54,593 bases of DNA from an alpha proteobacterium IMCC14465. Its GTDB lineage: Bacteria > Pseudomonadota > Alphaproteobacteria > RS24. The stretch is from positions 1 to 54,593 of the forward strand of contig ALYF01000008.1 of NCBI GenBank assembly GCA_000293845.2, given 5' to 3'. A program made the position numbers and the translations under genes. Shown here one piece after another: positions 7,539 through 54,591 of the stretch (positions are counted from its first letter, which is position 1; each line of letters begins with the position of its first letter). The notes under the pieces are model-generated. The model made no database searches, was not told where the DNA came from, and saw nothing but the letters and a program-made list of their open reading frames with translations.

Positions 7539-9169
7539 CCCGAAAATCACCCATGCGCTTTTTCGGGCTCGTCATTGTTCTTGCCATGCTGGCACCCGTT
7601 CTGGGCATAGCATGGCTGACCCTATCCCCATCAGAAATACCCAATAATGCGAATGACGGCTTGATGTCGTTTTTGATGACAACTGTTTTGCCTTATCAAT
7701 TTGGGCAAACACTTGGTCTCATGCTGGGTGTTACGGGCCTGACCCTATTAGCTGGTGTACCGGCTGCATGGTTTGTCACCTTTATCGACTTTCCGGGACG
7801 CAAGCAATTACAATGGTTACTCTTATTGCCCCTCGCCATGCCGACCTATATCGCGGCCTATGTGTTTGCCGAATTTCTCGATAAGGCCGGGCCTTTTTAT
7901 CAGTTCTGGATTTCCATTTTTGGCGCGACTGCATGGTACCCCTCGCTTAATAGTCTTGGGGGCGCCATTTTCACACTTTCTGCCGTGCTATATCCTTATG
8001 TTTATATGTCCGCGCGGACCGGCTTCATCAACCAGTCTGCCGAGTTAATGCAGGCAGGTCGCGTTTTGGGGGCCTCACAATGGATGAGTTTTCGCCAGAT
8101 TGCCCTCCCCCTTTCGCGACCCATGATTATTGTCGGCGTCGCACTCGCTCTCATGGAATGTCTGAACGATATCGGCGCTGTCGAGCATCTTGGTGTCAAA
8201 ACCCTCACTGTTGGGGTTTATGAAACATGGCTATCGCGGGGAAGTCTGGAAGGCGCGGCTAGAATTGCCATGCTCCTACTCGGCTTGATGGCGCTTTTAT
8301 TGTTGGTAGAGCGCTATCTTCGCGCCGGGGGCATTGAACAAAAATCCAAAAATGACCTGACCCCAATTTTGCACAAGCCCACCCCTTTGATGCAGGGGGC
8401 TATTCTGGCAATGACCAGCCTGCCATTTTTAATCGGCTTTGTGATACCCGTCCTCCTGCTTATCAGCTTTGCTCTGGGGCGTTTTGAAAACACCTATGGT
8501 CTGCTTGCCGCTGCCAGCAGAAGCATATTGCTCGCCAGCGCGACGGCTTTCATTGTCGTCACGATTGGGCTGTTTTTAGCTTTTCTGACACGTATCAATC
8601 CGCCGGGCTTGTTGAGCAAATCCATTCAAACTGCGTCATTGGGATACGCCATCCCCGGAACAGTTCTTGGGCTGGGGGTTTTGATTGTGTTGTCTCAGTT
8701 TGATAATGCAACATCCGGCTTTTTTAAAGGGGCAATCATACCAATATTGAGCGGCAGTGTGTTTGCGTTAATCTTCGCCTATTCACTGCGCTTTTTATCG
8801 ATTTCGTTTGGTACATTTGAGGCCGAGCTTTCGCGCGTCCCTCATACCATCGATATGGCGGCCAGTAGCCTTGGTGCAAAGACGTTCCAACTTCTCCGCT
8901 TTGTCCATATGCCAATGTTGCGCCCAGCTCTCATAACCGCCTCGGTGCTCGTCTTTGTGGACACAATGAAAGAGCTACCCGCGACACTTATTTTAAGGCC
9001 GTTTAATTTCGAGACATTGGCAACACAGGTTTATAATTACGCCTCTGTCGGACAGATTGAGGATGCGGCTATTCCTGCCTTAGTGATTGTTACAATCGGG
9101 ATACTTCCGGTTTACATAGCAACCAGAAAATTCCACCCAGAAAATTCCATAGGGCTTAGCTCAGCTTAA
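7535..9169 (+). CDS. Iron(III)-type ABC transporter permease, two fused permease domains
   Basis: The 544-residue inner-membrane protein has two binding-protein-dependent permease domains in one chain, as in FbpB/SfuB. Each half has many membrane segments and an EAA-like loop that docks the ATPase: AGRVLGASQWMSFRQIALP in the first and AASSLGAKTFQLLRFVHMP in the second. The family imports ferric iron in many cases, though thiamine or other substrates cannot be excluded. The binding protein and ATPase genes are not in the window, so this permease is a stand-alone gene here, which is a little odd. GTG is chosen as start for the 4-base overlap with the preceding gene; an ATG 18 bases later is an alternative. 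Confidence 0.85.
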   Translation: MTRKSPMRFFGLVIVLAMLAPVLGIAWLTLSPSEIPNNANDGLMSFLMTTVLPYQFGQTLGLMLGVTGLTLLAGVPAAWFVTFIDFPGRKQLQWLLLLPLAMPTYIAAYVFAEFLDKAGPFYQFWISIFGATAWYPSLNSLGGAIFTLSAVLYPYVYMSARTGFINQSAELMQAGRVLGASQWMSFRQIALPLSRPMIIVGVALALMECLNDIGAVEHLGVKTLTVGVYETWLSRGSLEGAARIAMLLLGLMALLLLVERYLRAGGIEQKSKNDLTPILHKPTPLMQGAILAMTSLPFLIGFVIPVLLLISFALGRFENTYGLLAAASRSILLASATAFIVVTIGLFLAFLTRINPPGLLSKSIQTASLGYAIPGTVLGLGVLIVLSQFDNATSGFFKGAIIPILSGSVFALIFAYSLRFLSISFGTFEAELSRVPHTIDMAASSLGAKTFQLLRFVHMPMLRPALITASVLVFVDTMKELPATLILRPFNFETLATQVYNYASVGQIEDAAIPALVIVTIGILPVYIATRKFHPENSIGLSSA

Positions 9170-29386: not shown

Positions 29387-29419
29387 AATAAGCACCCCAC
29401 TGCTCGTGGATTGCTTATT
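29387..29419. terminator. Convergent hairpin, possible bidirectional terminator
   Basis: AATAAGCA (29387-29394) pairs with TGCTTATT (29412-29419), with an inner CCAC/GTGG. It lies between the stops of the convergent dioxygenase and outer-membrane protein genes, overlapping the latter stop. A/T flanks the stem on both sides. Confidence 0.5.
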
Positions 29420-30017
29420 AGAATTTATAAATAACCTTGGTGGCGATAAATTCTGATTTAACTTTCCAGTCATCATCGGTATTTTGCTCTAGATAGACAC
29501 CGACTGACAGCTGGTCAGAAACTTTATAATCGAGGCCATAATTGTTTTGTGCCTCGTAATATTCACCATCTTCATATCCATCTCTATCAATGGCGAGTTT
29601 TGGCTGTAATTTGATATAGGCTTTGAAAGCACCAAATTTCTTTTGATATTGAAAACGAAGCCAGAAATTTGCGAAATCGTCTGTCGATTCTTGGTTGAAA
29701 GCGCGATATTCAAAACGCGGCGCAATAGAGAACCCCTTATAGTCCAGTGCTTTCGGGAAACTTAAGCGAAAGCGATGCTCTACATTGCCTTTAATTTCTT
29801 GATAACGATAGGCGTACCCATAATCTGCAAGCTTCACATCGAACTGCGTCATCCATTTATCAAGGCGCGAGTGATCACGATATTTCAAACTCATATTGCC
29901 TGATTTCACTGTAAAATTATGTTGTGAGTAGTCAAAAGAATCCATCGCAAAGGACGGTGCAACCAATAATGTCGCAAACAGCGTCATAAGGGTTGATGTT
30001 GTTATTATTTTTTTCAT
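29418..30017 (-). CDS. Small outer-membrane beta-barrel-like protein
   Basis: The 199-residue protein has a clear signal peptide (MKKIITTSTLMTLFATLLVA, cleavage after SFA). The mature part alternates polar and aromatic residues in strand-like segments (FRLSFPKALDYKGFSIAPR, FWLRFQYQKKFGAFKAYIKL) and ends IYKF, the aromatic C-terminus of outer-membrane barrels. I do not recognise a named family; oligogalacturonate-porin-like small barrels are one option. The start is the ATG with GGGGAAAATT upstream. A Pho-box-like site lies about 95 bases before the start. Confidence 0.65.
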   Translation of the reverse strand: MKKIITTSTLMTLFATLLVAPSFAMDSFDYSQHNFTVKSGNMSLKYRDHSRLDKWMTQFDVKLADYGYAYRYQEIKGNVEHRFRLSFPKALDYKGFSIAPRFEYRAFNQESTDDFANFWLRFQYQKKFGAFKAYIKLQPKLAIDRDGYEDGEYYEAQNNYGLDYKVSDQLSVGVYLEQNTDDDWKVKSEFIATKVIYKF

Positions 30018-30110
30018 TAGAATTTTCCCCAATTTAACTAACATGTCTTCGAATAATTGATTTAGTAAACTTGTAAAATTCCTCAACAGACTTTCAAATG
30101 CACTTGAAAC

Positions 30111-30128
30111 ATTACAGTTTTGTGACAA
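30111..30128 (-). promoter_or_regulatory. Pho-box-like site upstream of the small barrel protein
   Basis: Read on the minus strand, TTGTCAC-AAAA-CTGTAAT matches the 18-bp PhoB site (CTGTCATAWAWCTGTCAY) at 15 of 18 positions by eye, with correct 11-bp spacing. It lies 94 bases before the ATG. The remainder of the gap 30018-30355 shows no other clear element. Confidence 0.5.
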
Positions 30129-45083: not shown

Positions 45084-45455
45084 CTACATGTCCATCTTAT
45101 AGAAACAAATTTTATTATTATCTAAATCTCGGACATAAACCCCGTAAAACCCCGCAGAAGCTTCTTGATTTATGTCGCTAACATAAGAAGCATTTATTTT
45201 TTTTGCATGGTTTTTCATAAAATCCACCTTGTCAGAAGATGAAACATTAATGGCTATCATCGTCCCGTTACCATTTGTAGCCACTCCACCATCTGCAGGG
45301 GTGCATATCCCAAACATTGACCCATTGCCATCAGTATAAAGCTGGACCCTGTCTGTGTGAGGGCCACGCTTAAAGTCTATCGGTTCTAATAGCTGGTCAT
45401 AAAACGCCAAGGATTTCTCTAAATCATTAGTTCCGAATAAAACATATCCAATCAT
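45084..45455 (-). CDS. VOC-family (glyoxalase/dioxygenase fold) protein
   Basis: The 123-residue protein has one VOC module: MIGYVLFGTNDLEKSLAFYD at the N-terminus, MFGICTPADGG in the middle and FYGVYVRDLDNNKICFY at the end. It resembles small glyoxalase-like proteins of unknown substrate; first-position His of the usual metal site is absent (GYVLF), so it may not be a metalloenzyme. Its ATG overlaps the TGA of the 2OG oxygenase gene by four bases, so the two are translated together. Confidence 0.8.
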   Translation of the reverse strand: MIGYVLFGTNDLEKSLAFYDQLLEPIDFKRGPHTDRVQLYTDGNGSMFGICTPADGGVATNGNGTMIAINVSSSDKVDFMKNHAKKINASYVSDINQEASAGFYGVYVRDLDNNKICFYKMDM

Positions 45456-46303
45456 TTTTTTTCACCTAATCCTATTTCTGTTAGCCGTTCGCGAAGATAA
45501 GTTTTCGCTGTATGAGTTTCAGATAGCCTAACATCGGGCCTTGGATGAAGAAAGAAAGGAACCGAATATCTGGAGTTGTTTTGACCATGCTCAGGATTGA
45601 TAACCCTGTGTGTCGCAGACGGATAATAATTATGCGTCGCCAGTTGCAGCATATCAGCCGAATTTACCGTAATCATATCATCTTGACATGGAACATTAAT
45701 CCACTCGCCTTGCAATGTTTTTGTTTGAAGCCCCGGCTCCGAACCAGCCAATAAAATCGTAATGAGATTTATATCCTCATGAGCCGCCGCACGCTCTGCT
45801 AGTAGGGCTTCTTTTTCTTCTATGGGAGGGTAATGCAACACGCGCATTAGATTTTCTTCACTATCAGTCAGCATATCAGATAAGTGATGCGTCATTGTTT
45901 CTTTCACGCCATCCGGCAATCCAATTTCTAACCACTGGAGGAGTTGCGTTCCTAAATCGAGTAACTCTGAATAAAGTTTTCGCGTTATTATCTCACATTC
46001 AGCTGGCAATGGAGAAAATGGATATACATGAAAGAATTCTTTTAAATCTTTCTCGGAATTGCCCTTAGCGTTTTCAGATTGATAAGGGAAATATCCAGAA
46101 TGTGTTAGAGGGTCTCTTAACCAAGTATTTTTATGTTTTTCCTCGGTATTAAAAAAGTCTGTCCATACCTGATAGAATGAAGATATGAGGTCTTTATTAA
46201 CCGGGTGATCTTTGAGAACGGCAAAGCCTGTCTCATGTAAACTTTCATGAAATTGCTCCTTAGCATCAGGAACATGAAACCCTATCACCTTAATATCCGT
46301 CAT
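45452..46303 (-). CDS. Isopenicillin N synthase-like 2OG-Fe(II) oxygenase
   Basis: The 283-residue enzyme has the DIOX_N-like start (ETGFAVLKDHPVNKDLI) and the catalytic domain: MRVLHYPPIE, AAHEDINLITILL with HxD, ATHNYYPSATHRVINPE with the distal His, and SRYSVPFFLHP with the RxS 2-oxoglutarate motif. Family members oxidise small molecules or act in secondary metabolism; substrate is not known. Coupled to a VOC gene downstream, and begins eight bases after the CNT stop, so it may share that transcript. ATG 46303 is used. Confidence 0.88.
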   Translation of the reverse strand: MTDIKVIGFHVPDAKEQFHESLHETGFAVLKDHPVNKDLISSFYQVWTDFFNTEEKHKNTWLRDPLTHSGYFPYQSENAKGNSEKDLKEFFHVYPFSPLPAECEIITRKLYSELLDLGTQLLQWLEIGLPDGVKETMTHHLSDMLTDSEENLMRVLHYPPIEEKEALLAERAAAHEDINLITILLAGSEPGLQTKTLQGEWINVPCQDDMITVNSADMLQLATHNYYPSATHRVINPEHGQNNSRYSVPFFLHPRPDVRLSETHTAKTYLRERLTEIGLGEKK

Positions 46304-46311
46304 CAATCAAC

Positions 46312-47586
46312 TCATAAACAAATACTGATAACGCTCGCGGTTATTAATGTTGCAAGTGTTCCAGCGATTATTGATCTAAAGCCAAGCTGCAGAATGTCTG
46401 TTTTTCTCTCCGGCGCAAGAATAAATAGCCCGGACAGCATAATTCCAAGACTACTGAGATTTGCAAAACCGTTAACGGCATAAAAGGTTACGATGCGTGA
46501 TCTGGGTGACAAATCCCCATCTTCAAGTTTACCCATTTCAATGAAAGCGAGAAGTTCATTAAAGACCGTTTTTACGCCCATTATCTGCCCTGCCGTCAAA
46601 GCATCCTGCCAGCTCATGCCAGTCACCCACATGAGAGGCGCCATGAATAAGCCTAATATATATTGGAGGGTAATTTCTTCCCCTCTTAGGTCGGGGAGAA
46701 AACTCAAAAAGCCGTTTAACAAATAAACCAAGGCAAGCATTACGACGATACTGGCCAATACATTTAAAAATATAATTAACCCTTGATTGGTCCCGGATGT
46801 CAGAGCATCCATAAAACCTTCATAATTATTCTCGTCTTCCTCTGCGGCATTTATCTCATTTTGTGAAGTTGAGTTTTGAGAGCTTTCTGGAGGAACCATA
46901 ATCGTCGCCACTAAAACACCTGCAAAAGCACTCAATACAGAAGAAATCAAAATATGACCGGAAACATTTTCAACATAATTGTTAAGCACAACCACATAAA
47001 CCGCAAAAACCGTCCCTGCGACTGTACACATGCCGGTCGTCATGATGATGAACAAATCTCCACGGCTCATTTTTGCTAAATAGGGTTTAATAAGCATTGG
47101 TGATTCAACCATGCCAATAAAAATATTTGCCGCTGACCCCAGCGCAGATGCTTCGCTGATATTGGATATATTTCTTATTAATTTGCCAATTTTTGAAATT
47201 ATGAACGGCAATACACCTATATAAAAGAGCAAAGCGGTGAGCGAGCTAAAAACGATAATTAAGGGTAAACCGCGGAAAGCAAAAATATACGCATCGCTTT
47301 CATCAACTAATTCAAACGGTAGGGGTGCCCCTCCCAAATATCCAAAAACGAAACTCGTACCAAACTCTGTAGCCTCTTGGAGCGTGATAATAGCTTTATT
47401 AACTGACCCGAAAAAAAATTCAGCGATTGGTGTTTTTAAAATAGCGGAAGCAAAAACTGCTTGTGTCAAAAGCAAAATAACAACCGTTTTGAGGTTAAAT
47501 TTACGTCGGTTTTCACTCAGTAATAAGGCTATGGATACAAAGATAACCAGCCCCAAAACACTTTGCAATTTTAAACCAAATTCCAT
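46312..47586 (-). CDS. Concentrative nucleoside transporter (CNT/NupC family)
   Basis: The 424-residue membrane carrier shows CNT features: FVFGYLGG, FRGLPLIIVFSSLTALLFYIG-like segments, SALGSAANIFIGMVESPMLI with the substrate-site Glu, MTTGMCTVAGTVFAVYV, GVKTVFNELLAFIEM and TFYAVNGFANLSSLGIMLSG. It imports nucleosides with sodium or protons. ATG 47586 is used because AAGGGCG lies upstream. It is divergent from the PhoX-like gene, with a multi-unit PhoB-like site between them, so nucleoside uptake may be linked to phosphate shortage. Confidence 0.9.
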   Translation of the reverse strand: MEFGLKLQSVLGLVIFVSIALLLSENRRKFNLKTVVILLLTQAVFASAILKTPIAEFFFGSVNKAIITLQEATEFGTSFVFGYLGGAPLPFELVDESDAYIFAFRGLPLIIVFSSLTALLFYIGVLPFIISKIGKLIRNISNISEASALGSAANIFIGMVESPMLIKPYLAKMSRGDLFIIMTTGMCTVAGTVFAVYVVVLNNYVENVSGHILISSVLSAFAGVLVATIMVPPESSQNSTSQNEINAAEEDENNYEGFMDALTSGTNQGLIIFLNVLASIVVMLALVYLLNGFLSFLPDLRGEEITLQYILGLFMAPLMWVTGMSWQDALTAGQIMGVKTVFNELLAFIEMGKLEDGDLSPRSRIVTFYAVNGFANLSSLGIMLSGLFILAPERKTDILQLGFRSIIAGTLATLITASVISICL

Positions 47587-47755
47587 CAAAAACGCCCTTG
47601 TAAAAAACAATCCATAACATTCTATAAGGATAGCTGTGAATTTTTTTCTCTAAGATACAAACATTGGCGTCTCAAGCTCTTAAGATTTGCGCCGGCATTC
47701 GACATAATCTGTATGATGAAAATACAAAACCATGTATTGAAAATGAGTTATGGAA

Positions 47756-47799
47756 ATTTCATTTTTTTGTCATCAAAAATTCATTTTACGGTCATCATC
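47756..47799 (+). promoter_or_regulatory. Four tandem 11-bp PhoB-like half-sites
   Basis: Four consecutive 11-mers share xxxTCAT at positions 1-7: ATTTCAT-TTTT, TTGTCAT-CAAA, AATTCAT-TTTA, CGGTCAT-CATC. PhoB binds CTGTCAT-N4 direct repeats with exactly this period. The array ends 30 bases before the PhoX-like ATG, and TTAATT at 47804 may be the -10. It may also influence the divergent CNT gene. Confidence 0.65.
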
Positions 47800-47829: not shown

Positions 47830-49884
47830 ATGAATTTAAAATTAAAAACCACACTGCTATCGGCATTATATTTCGCCACTATAGATGTTTCTTATGCAAC
47901 TGAAGCGGCGCAATCCCAAAAAACTATTGGGCAGACTACAGCTCTTATTGCTGAGGCGGGTCTCTCGGATGAATACCTAAAAGACGGTGAAAGCGGTAAT
48001 GTTAATTTTCCGTTTGCTTCTTTTAAAGCCATTGCCACCATTGGCGAAGTCGATGCCAAATCCGGTTTGGCGCTAACCGGGTATCCTGATGGTCATGCCG
48101 TGTGGTTGAAAGATAATAATACTATTCGTGTCGTCTATCAAAGTGAGTCATATGCCACTTTAGGGCGCTCCCCTGCTCCAGAAACATACCCTTGGGAGAT
48201 GGAAACCGGCGTGACTTTTACCGGCTCGCATGTCCACACAATTGACTATGACCGAGAGGCTTTTGCCGAATTTTTGGATAATGATAAAGCCGCCAACACA
48301 ATGGTCAAAACGTCAGGCAAGCTATTTAATAAGATATATAACGGCTTCGGCAATTTAGTGACCCCCTCCTCCCCTGACACAACAAATTTGTCTGGTAAGT
48401 GGGGCAATCAGACACGTCCTGATGGCACAGTCATCCAATTCAAACCGAAATACGCTCTGAGTGAAGCAGACTTTTTCTTCCAGAGTTTTTGTGGCGCTTG
48501 GTATGAGCCCGCCAATAAATATGGCGAAGGTATGGGCTTCTCTGATGATGTATGGCTGGCCGCTGAAGAATGGGAAATCAGCCCTATGTTTCCATCCGAT
48601 GATAAAGACGCAAACGCCACACTCGGACTTGCGAGCATTGTGGTGGATATCGCCAATAAAACAGCCTACACCGCCCCTGCACTAGGGCAGACGGGTTATG
48701 AAAAACTGATGCCTATTCATTCAGGCCATAAGGATTATGTGGTTATTGTTGCTGCCGGCTATAATCATGGCTATGAACCCGCCCCGAACCGCATTTATAT
48801 AGGCATGAAAAATCGTGCGGCCAATGGCAGACAGATTGATTATCAAACCGCCTCACCACGCGATGCCTTTCTCGCGCGCAATGGTTTATTGTACGGAAAA
48901 ATCTATGGCCTGGCACTGACTCCTGAGACTTTTGCCGCATTAGGTCTGGAAGTTAACCCTCAGGACAAAATGGTTGATAGCTATCTGAAAAATGCTGACG
49001 CACCGGATAGATTTCAGGGGCGCTTCTATCCCACCTCATATCAATGGACCGGTTTCGACAATCCTGTTGCGGTTAAGAACACAGAAATGATGCTTTGGGA
49101 CAGTGAAGAAGAACAACCGGAAGGCTACACATTTTTCAATGGTGACACCAAAACAGAACATCCAGCCGTCGACCCCTCTGGCAAGGCGAGATATTTCCAA
49201 AACATGACGGATGAGGGTGCCTTAATGGGTTTTGATCTCGGCAATCTCGGGGAGGTGTTCGCCACCGCCAATAATGAACTACCACCTCATCTTGATGTAT
49301 CCGTTATTCGCTCGGTTGCAGCAATTGACGGGGCACTGACTGTTAAAACGGGAGGTGAATTCAAAACTGTCAAGGGTGATGCATCAATTCATCGGGATAA
49401 AGGGGTCGCTAAAATGGTGTCCCCGGACGGGCTTTATTGGTCAAAAACAGCTGATGGTGATTATTTGATTGTCGAGGAGGACTCGGGCAATGATTACGGC
49501 GAACGGAAATATGTGCTGACAATTGACGAACAAATGAATGTGGTCGACGCGCATCTTCTGGCTATCGCCGGTGGCAAATATAGTTCACGTTATCAAAAAG
49601 GTGTTTCGGCTCTTGGTGGCACATTTGTGAAAGCCGGCAGTAATGAGTTCTCCGGCAACTGGCCTGTCACAGCCCTCATTAAACGCAAATCGAATGGTGC
49701 CTTTTATTCGATGGACGAGTTGAAAGGCACGGCACGTCAAGAAATACGAAACCAAGTTCCCACCAATCGCCAGGCTTATATAGGTGCAGTCCAAGCGCGA
49801 CCGGAATCTGGAGGTGCTGTTGTCAAAAACCGTGCCGATTCAGGTGGACAACTATTTTTATATAGAATGAATCTTTCGGATTAA
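47830..49884 (+). CDS. Secreted PhoX-like (DUF839-type) beta-propeller protein
   Basis: The 684-residue protein has a signal peptide (MNLKLKTTLLSALYFATIDV, ending SYA) and mainly beta-rich sequence. SFCGAWYEPANKYGEGMG, WLAAEEWEISPMF, MVSPDGLYWSKTADGDYLIV and EEDSGNDYGERKYVL recall the acidic calcium/iron motifs of PhoX phosphatases, but the classic PhoX sequence is not reproduced, so this is a tentative family call. The PhoB-like array directly upstream and the PhoD-like gene downstream support a phosphoesterase role. AAAAGGAA precedes the ATG. Expected location is periplasm or surface. Confidence 0.5.
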   Translation: MNLKLKTTLLSALYFATIDVSYATEAAQSQKTIGQTTALIAEAGLSDEYLKDGESGNVNFPFASFKAIATIGEVDAKSGLALTGYPDGHAVWLKDNNTIRVVYQSESYATLGRSPAPETYPWEMETGVTFTGSHVHTIDYDREAFAEFLDNDKAANTMVKTSGKLFNKIYNGFGNLVTPSSPDTTNLSGKWGNQTRPDGTVIQFKPKYALSEADFFFQSFCGAWYEPANKYGEGMGFSDDVWLAAEEWEISPMFPSDDKDANATLGLASIVVDIANKTAYTAPALGQTGYEKLMPIHSGHKDYVVIVAAGYNHGYEPAPNRIYIGMKNRAANGRQIDYQTASPRDAFLARNGLLYGKIYGLALTPETFAALGLEVNPQDKMVDSYLKNADAPDRFQGRFYPTSYQWTGFDNPVAVKNTEMMLWDSEEEQPEGYTFFNGDTKTEHPAVDPSGKARYFQNMTDEGALMGFDLGNLGEVFATANNELPPHLDVSVIRSVAAIDGALTVKTGGEFKTVKGDASIHRDKGVAKMVSPDGLYWSKTADGDYLIVEEDSGNDYGERKYVLTIDEQMNVVDAHLLAIAGGKYSSRYQKGVSALGGTFVKAGSNEFSGNWPVTALIKRKSNGAFYSMDELKGTARQEIRNQVPTNRQAYIGAVQARPESGGAVVKNRADSGGQLFLYRMNLSD

Positions 49885-49964: not shown

Positions 49965-50987
49965 ATGTATAAGTCGCGTTTTCTTCAAGTCTTAGTATTT
50001 CTGACGTTTTTTTCCTGTGCTTCTAACGTTTTTGCAGAACCGTATAAAATTTTATTTGGGTCATGCTTAAAGCAAGATAAGCCCCTTAATATTCTTGACC
50101 AGATTTACCGTGAACAGCCGGATGCTTTTATTTTTCTCGGAGACAATGTTTACGGAGATACTGAGGCAGAAACAATGGACGCCTTAAAACAAGCCTATGC
50201 TGCCGCAGATAAATTTCTGGATAGAGACAGTCTTGGGGAAATACACGCCATTTGGGACGACCATGATTATGGCCGCAATGATGGAGGGGGGGATTATCCA
50301 TTAAAGAAACAATCAGAGGCTCTATTTCTCGATTTTTGGAAAGTGTCAACCAATGATGTCCGCCGACAGAGAGAAGGCATTTACTATGCGACGTTCCACC
50401 AAATCGGCGATATCAAAATCCAGATGATTTTTCTAGATACGCGTTATTTTCGTTCAAAACTAAAAAAATCACCTCTTAAATTCACAAAACGCTTCACGCA
50501 ATATATGCCAACTCAAGATAAAGAGGCGACCTTACTGGGGGATGCTCAATGGCTTTGGCTAGAGCAAGAATTGGCTAAATCTGCGGATATTCGAATCATT
50601 GCATCATCTATTCAGGTGCTTGCAAGCAATCATGGCTGGGAAAAATGGAGCAATTTTCCTGCTGAACGCAAAAAACTCCTTTCGGCACTAAAAACCCGTA
50701 AGGGAGGTGATATTTTGTTAATTTCAGGTGATCGACATTTCAGCGCCTTATATGAGATGCCCGGCGCTTCCATAAATTCAAAAAACAGCCTTCTCGAATT
50801 CACATCTAGTTCACTTAATAATAGCTGGAAGGGCGCAAAAGAGACTGACGAATTGATGGTGGAAGAGCCCTTTGGGCGATTGGGAAGCTACGGCAAAATC
50901 ACACTTTACCCAGAAAAACGAGAGCTTCAGCTAGACCTTATAGATGAAGACGGTAACAGAGTTTTTCACCAAAATAGAAAATTCTGA
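49965..50987 (+). CDS. PhoD-like secreted metallophosphatase
   Basis: The 340-residue protein has a signal peptide (MYKSRFLQVLVFLTFFSCAS, ending VFA) and the PhoD-like metal-binding motifs: ILFGSCLKQDKPLN, AFIFLGDNVYGD, HAIWDDHDYGRNDGGGDYP and LLISGDRHFSALYEM. These supply the Asp, Asn and His ligands of a calcium/iron phosphodiesterase or phosphomonoesterase. It is smaller than Bacillus PhoD, like many single-domain marine homologs. It follows the PhoX-like gene by 80 bases on the same strand and precedes the TonB receptor by 89. Confidence 0.88.
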   Translation: MYKSRFLQVLVFLTFFSCASNVFAEPYKILFGSCLKQDKPLNILDQIYREQPDAFIFLGDNVYGDTEAETMDALKQAYAAADKFLDRDSLGEIHAIWDDHDYGRNDGGGDYPLKKQSEALFLDFWKVSTNDVRRQREGIYYATFHQIGDIKIQMIFLDTRYFRSKLKKSPLKFTKRFTQYMPTQDKEATLLGDAQWLWLEQELAKSADIRIIASSIQVLASNHGWEKWSNFPAERKKLLSALKTRKGGDILLISGDRHFSALYEMPGASINSKNSLLEFTSSSLNNSWKGAKETDELMVEEPFGRLGSYGKITLYPEKRELQLDLIDEDGNRVFHQNRKF

Positions 50988-51076: not shown

Positions 51077-54000
51077 ATGCGCAAGATATTATTAGTTTTC
51101 CTTTTTACATTTTCCTTTATTTTTACATCCCAAGCTCAAGTGACGACCGCCAGCATCAAAGGTGTTGTCGGAGATATTGGAGCTGGTGTTAATAATGTAT
51201 CTGTCACAGTGACTGATACCCGAACCAACACATCTGCAACGACTAAAACTGGTGCAAATGGTGAATATTACATTCCTAATTTGAAAATTGGCGGCCCTTA
51301 TAAGGTCACCATTTCAGGTGATGGCGTCGATGAAGAGACTATTGGTGACGTGTTTCTTGAAATTGGCAAGACACAGAAAGTAGACTTCTCCTCTGAACCA
51401 GCTGCTGATGAAGTAATTGTAATGGGTCAAATGCAGAAGACTATGGACATTGCCATAGGTCCAGCATCATCCTACTCAACTGAAGATTTGAGAAACTTAC
51501 CGGGCATAAACAAGGATATTAAAGACCTTGCCCAGATAGACTCACGCCTTTTTTACGATAAGCAGAACGACTCGCTTTCTTGCATGGGCATGAATAACCG
51601 CTTTAATAGCCTTACCGTTGACGGCGTGCGCATGAATGATGGTTTCGGTCTCAAAAGTGGTGGTTACCCAACTGAGGGCATGCCATTCGCTTATGAAGCG
51701 ATTGAACAGTTCGCTGTTGAGTTCGCACCCTATGATGTCGAGTATAACGGCTTTACCTCATGCAACATTAATGCAGTCTCTAAATCCGGTAAAAACGAAT
51801 TTTTTGGAACACTCCGTTATGATTATACGGACGACAGCCTGAAAGGTGATACTCTCGAGGGAGAGTCTGTAAGCGTTCCATCTTTTGAAGAAAAAACGAT
51901 GCAGATCACGATTGGCGGACCAATTGTTGAAGATAAGCTTTTCTTCTTCGCTGCTTACGAAAAAGATGAAGGTATCGATACTTTCGAACGTGGGTATGAG
52001 GGTTCTGGTGCCATTAATGAGCTGCAAGGCTTCACTGAGGCACAATTCAATCGTGTCAGAGATGCTGCAATCAACACTTACGGTTACAATCCAGGCAGCC
52101 TGCCTTCAGGCATTGATTACGACGTTGAGAAAATTCTTCTGAAATTTGATGCAAATTTATCTGATAATCATCGGGCAACTTTGACATATAATTTCACCGA
52201 TGACGCTCATACTTATGAGTCTGATAGTGACCCTGATGAATTTGAATTTAGCCGCCATCTCTATGAAATTGGAGATGAGTTGGAAAGCGTTAATCTGGCA
52301 CTCTTCTCAGACTGGACAGATAATTTCTCCACAGAGTTCCGTTATGGCACTCTTGAACTGAATAACAGTCAAGAATGTTTGGATGGCAAAACCTTTGGTG
52401 AAATGGACATCCAAATTGGCAACAACTCTATCTATATCGGCTGTGATGACAGCCGCCATGCCAACGCAATGGACTATGAAATTGAGACCCTAAAAATCAA
52501 AGGTGAGCTTTCAGTGGGTGGCCATGTTATTACTGCTGGCTATGAAGTTGAGGATTATCAAGCTTCTAACCTTTTTGTTCAAAGTTTCTTGGGTGAGTAT
52601 GAGTTTACGTCTCTAGAAAATTTTGAAAACCAAATTGCCGATGAAATCGTTTACGGAAACGCACCAACCGGCACGCTGGGCGATGCTGAAGTGAATTTTG
52701 GTTATAAAATCTCCTCAGTATATCTTCAGGATGAGTTTTCACTCTTAGAAGGCAAACTCGATGTTACTGCCGGCTTAAGATACGATTATTACGAGTCAGG
52801 TGATTTACCGACACTTAATCCCGATTATGTTGACACATTCGGTCGGAGCAATGCGATTAACCTTGACGGCAAAGATATAATGTTACCCCGTCTTGGTCTT
52901 AACTATGAGCATGATGAGAGAACCTCACTTCGCGGCGGTATTGGCGTCTTTTCAGGCGGTAATCCAAATGTGTGGTTGGCCAACATCTACTCCGGCGACC
53001 ACATGTCAAAAGTTGAGCTAGCGCTTGATGATGACAGTCTGGTATATGGTACTAATGGTATTGATTTAACTTCATTGAACTATCAAGGCACCTGCCCTGC
53101 CGATCTTGGAACGGCGTGTCCAGGTTATTTGGTACCATCACTCCTTGCAAATGACCTTGCTTCAGGCGCCCCTAAATTTGAAATGGTAGCGCTTGATCCT
53201 AACTACGAAATTCCTTCAGAATTGAAATTTTCCTTTGGGATTTCACATATTGCCGAACTTCCGGGTGATAACTTCTTCGCGGGTGATTATGAGTTGTCTT
53301 TTGATTACATCAAATCAAAAGGTGAAGACTCAGTCGGATATATCCGTAAAGACCTGACCCTCGGCACTGACCGTGTTGCTGGTATCATCCCTCAATTGGA
53401 AGAGATTACCCCTGCAGTCGGAGACGACCCAAAAGGGACCTTGATGCTCACCAATCTACAGGGCAATGAAACGGAAACGATGACATTCGGTGTTGCCAAA
53501 GATCACGGCAATGGTTTCGACTGGAAGTTCTCATACACACATATGGACTCCCAAGATACCGGACCAATGTTGAGCAGTGTTGGTTTCACAAACTTTGACC
53601 GCAGAACATATACGCATGCGAATGAGGATGTCTTATCCAGGTCAAACTTTGAAATCGAAGACAGGTTTACGCTTGTTGCAAATTACGAGAAAGAATTTGC
53701 CCCAGATTATCTGACCAAATTCTCACTCCTCGCAACATACCAGTCAGGTCGCCCTTATAGCTTGGTTTTTGAAAATAATAACATGACGGGCTTTACACCG
53801 TATCAGGATGAGGCAGCTACACTGCTTTACATCCCGACCGGTGCTAATGATCCTAATGTTGTCTTTGATCCGGGCTTCGACCAGACAGGTTTCTTCAACT
53901 TCCTAGCTGCAACAGGTGCAAATCAATTTGCAGGTGGTCTGGCACCAAGAAACGCATTTGATGACTCGCCTGATTGGGCCAAGATCGATATCAAAATCGA

Positions 54001-54256
54001 GCAAGAACTTCCAGGTCTGAGACCAGGTGACAAATCTGCTGTGTTCTTGGTTGTTGATAATCTGGGTAACTTGATTAATGACGAGTGGGGTATCTTCTCA
54101 CGTCCTTCCGAACGTGCGACCCTCTACACAGTCGACGCATCAACCAATAGTGACGGACAATTTGTTTTTGAAGAGTTCAATAACCCCAACCGCTTCTCCA
54201 GAGACGGTAATGCATCCCTCTGGAGCATTCGCGTTGGTATTCGTTACGACTTCTAA
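51077..54256 (+). CDS. TonB-dependent receptor with N-terminal carboxypeptidase-like domain (Oar type)
   Basis: The 1059-residue outer-membrane receptor has a signal peptide ending SQAQ, then a carboxypeptidase-regulatory-like beta sandwich at about 25-105 (IKGVVGDIGAGVNNVSVTV, TGANGEYYIPNLKIGGPYKV). The plug comes next at about 115-235 (LTVDGVRMNDGFGLKSGG). A beta barrel follows and ends in IRVGIRYDF with C-terminal Phe. No clear TonB box is assigned. Receptors of this type import or bind large or polymeric ligands; with the adjacent phosphatases the ligand may be an organophosphate or nucleic acid fragment. GGGGG lies before the ATG, and a terminator follows. Confidence 0.92.
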   Translation: MRKILLVFLFTFSFIFTSQAQVTTASIKGVVGDIGAGVNNVSVTVTDTRTNTSATTKTGANGEYYIPNLKIGGPYKVTISGDGVDEETIGDVFLEIGKTQKVDFSSEPAADEVIVMGQMQKTMDIAIGPASSYSTEDLRNLPGINKDIKDLAQIDSRLFYDKQNDSLSCMGMNNRFNSLTVDGVRMNDGFGLKSGGYPTEGMPFAYEAIEQFAVEFAPYDVEYNGFTSCNINAVSKSGKNEFFGTLRYDYTDDSLKGDTLEGESVSVPSFEEKTMQITIGGPIVEDKLFFFAAYEKDEGIDTFERGYEGSGAINELQGFTEAQFNRVRDAAINTYGYNPGSLPSGIDYDVEKILLKFDANLSDNHRATLTYNFTDDAHTYESDSDPDEFEFSRHLYEIGDELESVNLALFSDWTDNFSTEFRYGTLELNNSQECLDGKTFGEMDIQIGNNSIYIGCDDSRHANAMDYEIETLKIKGELSVGGHVITAGYEVEDYQASNLFVQSFLGEYEFTSLENFENQIADEIVYGNAPTGTLGDAEVNFGYKISSVYLQDEFSLLEGKLDVTAGLRYDYYESGDLPTLNPDYVDTFGRSNAINLDGKDIMLPRLGLNYEHDERTSLRGGIGVFSGGNPNVWLANIYSGDHMSKVELALDDDSLVYGTNGIDLTSLNYQGTCPADLGTACPGYLVPSLLANDLASGAPKFEMVALDPNYEIPSELKFSFGISHIAELPGDNFFAGDYELSFDYIKSKGEDSVGYIRKDLTLGTDRVAGIIPQLEEITPAVGDDPKGTLMLTNLQGNETETMTFGVAKDHGNGFDWKFSYTHMDSQDTGPMLSSVGFTNFDRRTYTHANEDVLSRSNFEIEDRFTLVANYEKEFAPDYLTKFSLLATYQSGRPYSLVFENNNMTGFTPYQDEAATLLYIPTGANDPNVVFDPGFDQTGFFNFLAATGANQFAGGLAPRNAFDDSPDWAKIDIKIEQELPGLRPGDKSAVFLVVDNLGNLINDEWGIFSRPSERATLYTVDASTNSDGQFVFEEFNNPNRFSRDGNASLWSIRVGIRYDF

Positions 54257-54282
54257 TCCATCCCCCCTAATGGTTAGAGAAA

Positions 54283-54308
54283 GGGCGGCTTTCGAGCCGC
54301 CCTTTTTT
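54283..54308 (+). terminator. Strong Rho-independent terminator
   Basis: GGGCGGCT (54283-54290), loop TTCG, AGCCGCCC (54295-54302) and six T residues. It ends the TonB receptor transcript. Confidence 0.92.
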
Positions 54309-54426
54309 AATTCCCTGAAAGAATTATGGCGCAAGGCGAACCTATCTTTCGCGACGCTCAACAAGTGCTTTTAGCGTGAACCGTTCGACGGGCTGAAGAC
54401 TTCATCTTCCGCTTATCCGCCTCACC

Positions 54427-54449
54427 CTTCAGCTTATGAGCCTGACGAG
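54427..54449. repeat. 23-nt copy of the tRNA-fMet anticodon arm in the flank
   Basis: CTTCAG-C-TTATGAGCCTGACGAG matches 54546-54568 inside the tRNA gene with one mismatch (C for G), 119 bases away in the same orientation. The region 54370-54470 also has partly complementary ends (CGTTCGAC...GTCAACG), so it may be a degenerate hairpin repeat as well. Confidence 0.6.

Positions 54450-54514: not shown

Positions 54515-54591
<77 letters not shown>

Follow-up and report, generated by a model that had tools for sequence, protein, structure and literature searches.

Mapped PhoB sites of Escherichia coli are direct repeats such as TGTCATAAAACTGTCATA, with cores 11 bp apart (PMC10294691). Psip1, the Prochlorococcus MED4 alkaline phosphatase PMM1416 described by Torcello-Requena et al. 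2024, is phosphate-starvation-inducible, stands under PhoBR and PtrA in picocyanobacteria, requires iron and calcium, has a Km of 0.35 micromolar for MUF-P and accepts AMP among its substrates (PMC11098088). It carries no known domains, is like PhoX in predicted structure only, has K432 in the place of PhoX Arg385 and has already been reported from some alphaproteobacteria; the main text of that paper leaves TonB unmentioned and phages aside bar one reference (PMC11098088). TonB receptors are already placed in the Caulobacter PhoB regulon, where they have been proposed as importers of alternative phosphate donors (PMC11208175).

We compared these systems with a locus of the alpha proteobacterium IMCC14465 (GCA_000293845.2). 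The window, by which we mean the whole stretch of DNA analysed, comprises 54,593 nt and corresponds to positions 1-54,593 of contig ALYF01000008.1, forward strand. Its relevant features are as follows.

45452..46306, minus strand: 2OG-Fe(II) oxygenase of the DIOX_N type (Pfam)
46312..47610, minus strand: NupC/CNT-type nucleoside transporter, divergent from the array (Pfam Nucleos_tra2_C, 2e-61)
47748..47799, plus strand: candidate operator array of the PhoB type, with four TCAT cores and one further, degenerate unit (sequence, rarity, likeness to the pstS box)
47830..49884, plus strand: psip1 homologue, 684 aa, predicted to be a likely exported high-affinity alkaline phosphatase (homology, K441)
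49965..50987, plus strand: PhoD-like phosphatase, 340 aa (Pfam PhoD, 2.4e-21)
51077..54256, plus strand: Oar-type TonB-dependent outer-membrane receptor, 1059 aa (Pfam OMP_b-brl_4, 6.8e-30; CarboxypepD_reg, 1e-14)
54277..54308, plus strand: intrinsic terminator, GC-rich hairpin and T run (fold of -24.2 kcal/mol for 54271-54320)

A preliminary description of this DNA had reported four TCAT units at an exact 11-base period, and we located them at 47759-47762, 47770-47773, 47781-47784 and 47792-47795. Their heptads (ATTTCAT, TTGTCAT, AATTCAT and CGGTCAT) all point towards the gene at 47830, the start codon of which follows the 3' end of the array by about 35 bp. The period extends to a fifth, degenerate unit (TTAT, 47748). 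The 11-mers themselves are non-identical, exact repetition being confined to TCAT in units that are otherwise AT-rich and degenerate; the canonical G at position 3 is missing from two of the four heptads (ATTTCAT and AATTCAT), and TRF called the stretch as a 22-bp unit repeated 2.0 times at 81%. The array nonetheless has the 11-bp direct repeats with a TCA[TC]-type core by which a Pho box is recognised.

When the genome of 1,923,658 bases was searched for TCAT-N7-TCAT-N7-TCAT-N7-TCAT, the array was the sole match with zero mismatches; with up to three mismatches allowed, the real pattern had 27 matches genome-wide and a reversed-pattern control 12. No other non-homopolymer 4-mer of the window recurs four times with an 11-base period. 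Among 100 dinucleotide shuffles of the window we observed one four-fold period-11 match of any word and none with TCAT, and when the 219-bp intergenic region was shuffled 20,000 times, such a match arose for any word in 0.02% and for TCAT in none. Scored with a Pho-box matrix that was made by hand from general Pho-box knowledge and not fitted to the present data, the array had the highest four-unit score of the window. A pattern search for three copies of CTTTCAT returned no match, and two near-arrays with two mismatches each (C3:625093 and C3:908118) were rejected as unconvincing, lying within or beside apparent cytochrome-oxidase assembly and glycerol-kinase genes.

The genome holds phoR-pstSCAB-phoU-phoB genes, all in one locus on contig C3. 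PhoB exceeds its curated cut-off (308 against 296 bits), as do PhoU, PstC, PstA and PstB, while PstS and PhoR match below theirs, the PhoR-like kinase only slightly so (304 against 334 bits). About 50 bp upstream of pstS lies a box, TTGTCACACTTCTGTAAT, which the array resembles. Because the genome has both this gene set and the similar box ahead of pstS, the array looks like a double PhoB operator. The claim that a PhoB-type array heads a phosphorus-scavenging unit, likewise made in the preliminary description, thereby gains computational support from the uniqueness of the array, the shuffles, the PhoB and Pst genes and the pstS box, and would appear sound. Elsewhere in the window, a second Pho-box-like site, TTGTCACAAAACTGTAAT (30111-30128, minus strand), near-identical to the pstS box, lies upstream of ORF 29418-30128, about 95 bp from where a small exported protein with no Pfam match likely starts.

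Behind the array, the psip1 homologue, the phoD-like gene and the receptor gene are separated by gaps of 80 and 89 bp that contain no terminator-like sites, and a terminator, overlooked by a simple terminator scan, follows only after the receptor. Given these short gaps and the strong hairpin with T run at the end, the three genes likely form one transcription unit. The receptor has no Pho box directly upstream (best rank 157 in the window), the array heading the three-gene unit instead, so its control would rest on co-transcription. Of the neighbours named in the preliminary description, the NupC-type transporter and the PhoD-like protein are borne out by Pfam and the TonB receptor by its OMP_b-brl_4 barrel and CarboxypepD_reg domain, both above gathering score; only the "PhoX-like" protein had to be renamed, as a Psip1 homologue. 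The NCBIfam nupC match of the transporter falls under the curated cut-off. The PhoD-like protein scores 76.7 bits against a Pfam gathering score of 27, and since its score for NCBIfam AlkPhosPhoDBac (22.6 bits) is far under the cut-off of 1000, we call it PhoD-like rather than an equivalog; it is 40-44% identical to a PhoD-like gene product encoded next to the related receptor in genomes of family f129.

The psip1 homologue, the Oar-type receptor and NupC were not found in five sampled congeners, two of them less than 80% complete, and the unit ends close to a tRNA-Met gene at the contig edge; for these reasons the psip1-phoD-receptor unit may have been acquired. Fifteen bases of the tRNA-Met anticodon region, TATGAGCCTGACGAG, recur about 120 bp away (54435-54449 and 54554-54568), in the stretch that separates the receptor terminator from this gene, possibly as a trace of insertion next to a tRNA.

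ORF 47830-49884 had no match in Pfam, NCBIfam or PDB, and, with no match to the Pfam or NCBIfam model of the PhoX family, it is not a PhoX by sequence. Scanning 84,980 species genomes by pattern, a method that detects close relatives only, we recovered proteins 61-65% identical to it from two single cells of Prochlorococcus and a gammaproteobacterial MAG; identity to the two Prochlorococcus proteins (L038 and L039) is 61-62% over residues 2-684, and K432 of Psip1 corresponds to K432 in both and to K441 in the window protein. From the genus of its relatives, the absence of domains and this lysine, we infer that the ORF encodes a Psip1 homologue, a comparison made through these Prochlorococcus relatives of the MED4 protein. 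AlphaFold models built from 5 and 9 sequences were unusable for judging a beta-propeller fold with a PhoX-like metal site (mean pLDDT 28.8 and 32.9). No further copy of psip1 was present in 61 relatives or 398 phylum genomes. Upstream of psip1 in the two Prochlorococcus sequences, at about 7900-7970, we noted TTTAA-type repeats spaced by roughly 11 bases, perhaps a Pho box of cyanobacterial type. Annotated phage genomes contained no homologue, and psip1 homologues do occur on IMG/VR viral contigs (L040/L209, L208, L210, L211, L212, L213 and L214), in several of which the gene adjoins pstS. Genes for a transaldolase and an outer-membrane protein of cyanophage type lie close by, and psip1 thus looks like a phage auxiliary metabolic gene.

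We then turned to the receptor, homologues of which were present in 19 of 385 genomes of a class sample and, at a stricter threshold, in 48 of 398 genomes of a phylum sample, IMCC14465 itself being counted in both. Up to 20 kb was taken around 56 homologues from Alpha- and Gammaproteobacteria, and 23 loci of other TonB receptors in genomes of the same set served as controls. A nucleotide, nucleoside or phosphatase gene lay within 5 kb of the receptor in 41 of the 56 homologous loci compared to 1 of the 23 controls (Fisher p 8e-9), which supports the tie to nucleotides or nucleosides suggested in the preliminary description. The panel of neighbours was partly built from genes seen in receptor loci, making the enrichment somewhat circular; the near-empty controls argue that circularity alone does not account for it. 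By Pfam, the neighbours include phosphatases and nucleases (5'-nucleotidase, PhoD, PhoA-type alkaline phosphatase, nucleotide pyrophosphatase, S1/P1 nuclease and EEP-family nucleases) and enzymes of nucleoside metabolism (adenosine and cytidine deaminases, thymidine phosphorylase, thymidine kinase and AMP nucleosidase), and they further include PpnN, nucleoside deoxyribosyltransferase, a nucleoside-binding Bmp protein and NupC.

As in the window, homologues of NupC and of the 2OG-oxygenase type stand beside the receptor at nine loci (L173, L174, L175, L177, L178, L181, L182, L083 and L086). In a maximum-likelihood tree the window receptor groups with two of these, L173 and L175, and with L075 and L172 at 99% support, whereas L088, L089 and L090, three further Oar receptors from these genomes without the nucleotide or phosphorus linkage, form a separate branch outside the clade. 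What emerges is a receptor clade with conserved nucleotide and phosphorus neighbours, as a nucleotide-linked Oar subfamily, proposed here, would have. The receptor is not grouped with unrelated transport in all relatives, the outcome that the preliminary description had named as a refutation, and its inclusion in the system gains computational support. Variations on the neighbourhood were also seen: in families f37 and f43 (L074, L075, L172, L199 and L200) the receptor adjoins a carbon-nitrogen hydrolase instead, with a near-perfect Pho box in three of the five loci, and in families f76 and f97 (L190-L192, L194-L196, L198, L206 and L207) it adjoins PpnN, a nucleotide 5'-monophosphate nucleosidase.

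The same hand-made matrix was used to rank Pho-box dimers on both strands across the entire locus, about 20 kb, of each of 55 complete homologues. In 17 of the 55, spread over 15 genera, the top-ranked box of the locus lay on the same strand and at most 350 bp upstream of the receptor, compared to none of the 23 controls, and a box of rank five or better was found in 30 of the 55 homologues and 2 of the 23 controls. The chance expectation is about 1% per locus, which gives a binomial probability of 2e-21 if relatedness is ignored. These 17 boxes lie 77-220 bp from the receptor start, 14 of them within 125 bp, and, having been picked by the matrix, read CTGTCA[CT]NNNN[CT]TGTCAT. The statement that a large Oar-type receptor is "not usually tied to phosphate" consequently fails for this subfamily, homologues in many genera having a Pho box of their own. 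The matrix scan found no recognisable Pho box at the receptor homologues of family f129 or of the purine-salvage loci L076 and L077, and for that reason some members of the subfamily may serve carbon or nitrogen supply.

We consider it probable that the array is a tandem PhoB operator that switches on the psip1-phoD-like-receptor unit at low phosphate for the use of nucleotide phosphorus. Four 11-bp half-sites would leave room for two PhoB dimers, and at low phosphate PhoB phosphorylated by PhoR would bind the array in pairs and turn on psip1, the phoD-like gene and the receptor. Nucleosides, nucleotides or short fragments of nucleic acid would then cross the outer membrane through the Oar-type TonB receptor. 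Phosphate freed by the two phosphatases, Psip1-type and PhoD-like, would be imported by PstSCAB, and NupC could take up the leftover nucleosides. What the sequence itself shows is a rare array, the identities of the genes, PhoR, PhoB and Pst encoded in the genome, and a receptor subfamily with a conserved association to Pho boxes and nucleotide genes; from these we infer that PhoB binds, that the three genes are co-transcribed, in which direction regulation runs and what is imported. The earlier interpretation thus seems right in outline and is partly supported, with "controlling" a prediction for the array.

Other explanations bear on different parts of this scheme. The repeat might be the site of another regulator or a chance AT-rich repeat, as units that are AT-rich and degenerate beyond TCAT would allow, but we regard this as highly improbable: the array is unique in the genome and a TCAT array was absent from the shuffles, its direct-repeat geometry and TCAT/TCAC core are those of mapped PhoB sites, PhoB, PhoR and Pst are encoded, and phosphatases lie directly downstream. 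It also seems distinctly unlikely that the array serves psip1 (and phoD) only while the receptor, with its own promoter and an unrelated import function, is there by chance or gene transfer. The missing box directly ahead of the window receptor, at rank 157, and the 89-bp gap preceding it would fit such an arrangement, as would a recent assembly of genes that are missing from the sampled congeners; yet the subfamily stands beside nucleotide and phosphorus genes in 41 of 56 loci and, in 15 genera, has a Pho box that ranks first in its locus, the window receptor groups at 99% with loci carrying NupC and the 2OG-oxygenase, and the terminator comes solely after the receptor.

The purpose of the import is a separate matter, since the receptor could take up nucleosides as carbon or nitrogen sources or for salvage, with phosphate a by-product and the Pho array recruiting the receptor secondarily. 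NupC, thymidine kinase, deaminases, phosphorylases and PpnN among the neighbours are what one would expect of such a role, and the L076 and L077 loci combine purine salvage genes with the absence of a Pho box. Secreted phosphatases, nucleases and Pho boxes, however, recur at the receptor in many genera, and we think this account rather unlikely. A PhoB-controlled unit for nucleotide phosphorus remains our preferred reading, and the neighbours and Pho boxes of the receptor subfamily point to a widespread system that may take phosphorus from nucleotides. We further propose, tentatively and as a possibility, that the Oar subfamily of Alpha- and Gammaproteobacteria is a dedicated PhoB-controlled outer-membrane importer of nucleotides or nucleic-acid fragments, around which NupC, phosphatases and secreted nucleases are grouped into "nucleotide utilisation loci", and that the IMCC14465 locus gained a high-affinity Psip1-type phosphatase.

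Pho boxes, PhoD, Psip1 and PhoB-controlled TonB receptors are all of kinds already known, and the main new result is the tie of the receptor subfamily to nucleotide and phosphorus genes and to Pho boxes. We found no report of this link and no transport substrate for the subfamily in the literature searched, an absence that is weak evidence because subscription literature mostly fell outside the search. To our knowledge, the passage of organic phosphorus such as nucleotides and DNA fragments over the Gram-negative outer membrane is poorly known, and porins are usually assumed to provide it. With its conserved Pho boxes and the nucleotide-degrading genes beside it across many genera, the receptor subfamily is a concrete, testable candidate for this passage. 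In the ocean, psip1 is a marker of severe phosphate stress, and the locus gives it a defined gene context outside cyanobacteria.

Set against the systems described at the outset, the array shares with the Pho boxes of E. coli pstS, phoA and phoH and of alphaproteobacteria its direct repeats, its TCAT/TCAC cores 11 bp apart and its place ahead of phosphate-scavenging genes, and the genome encodes PhoB and PhoR as the hosts of known Pho boxes do. It differs from them in having four (five) consecutive units, two without the G at position 3, and is a candidate site predicted from its sequence. The Psip1 homologue, like Psip1 of MED4, has no known domain, a phosphate-linked context and the conserved lysine; unlike the Psip1 of PMC11098088, it is encoded in a unit that also holds a TonB receptor and a PhoD-like phosphatase and is headed by a Pho array, and its relation to PhoX is confined to the structural resemblance reported for Psip1, as the window protein has no sequence match to PhoX. 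The Caulobacter receptors offer the parallel of TonB receptors under PhoB, with no Oar subfamily or nucleotide link named for them in the portion of PMC11208175 cited here. Finally, the window receptor is like other Oar-type receptors (OMP_b-brl_4 and CarboxypepD_reg) in domain architecture and length, and it is set apart from them by a subfamily that is tied to nucleotide and phosphorus genes and to Pho boxes.
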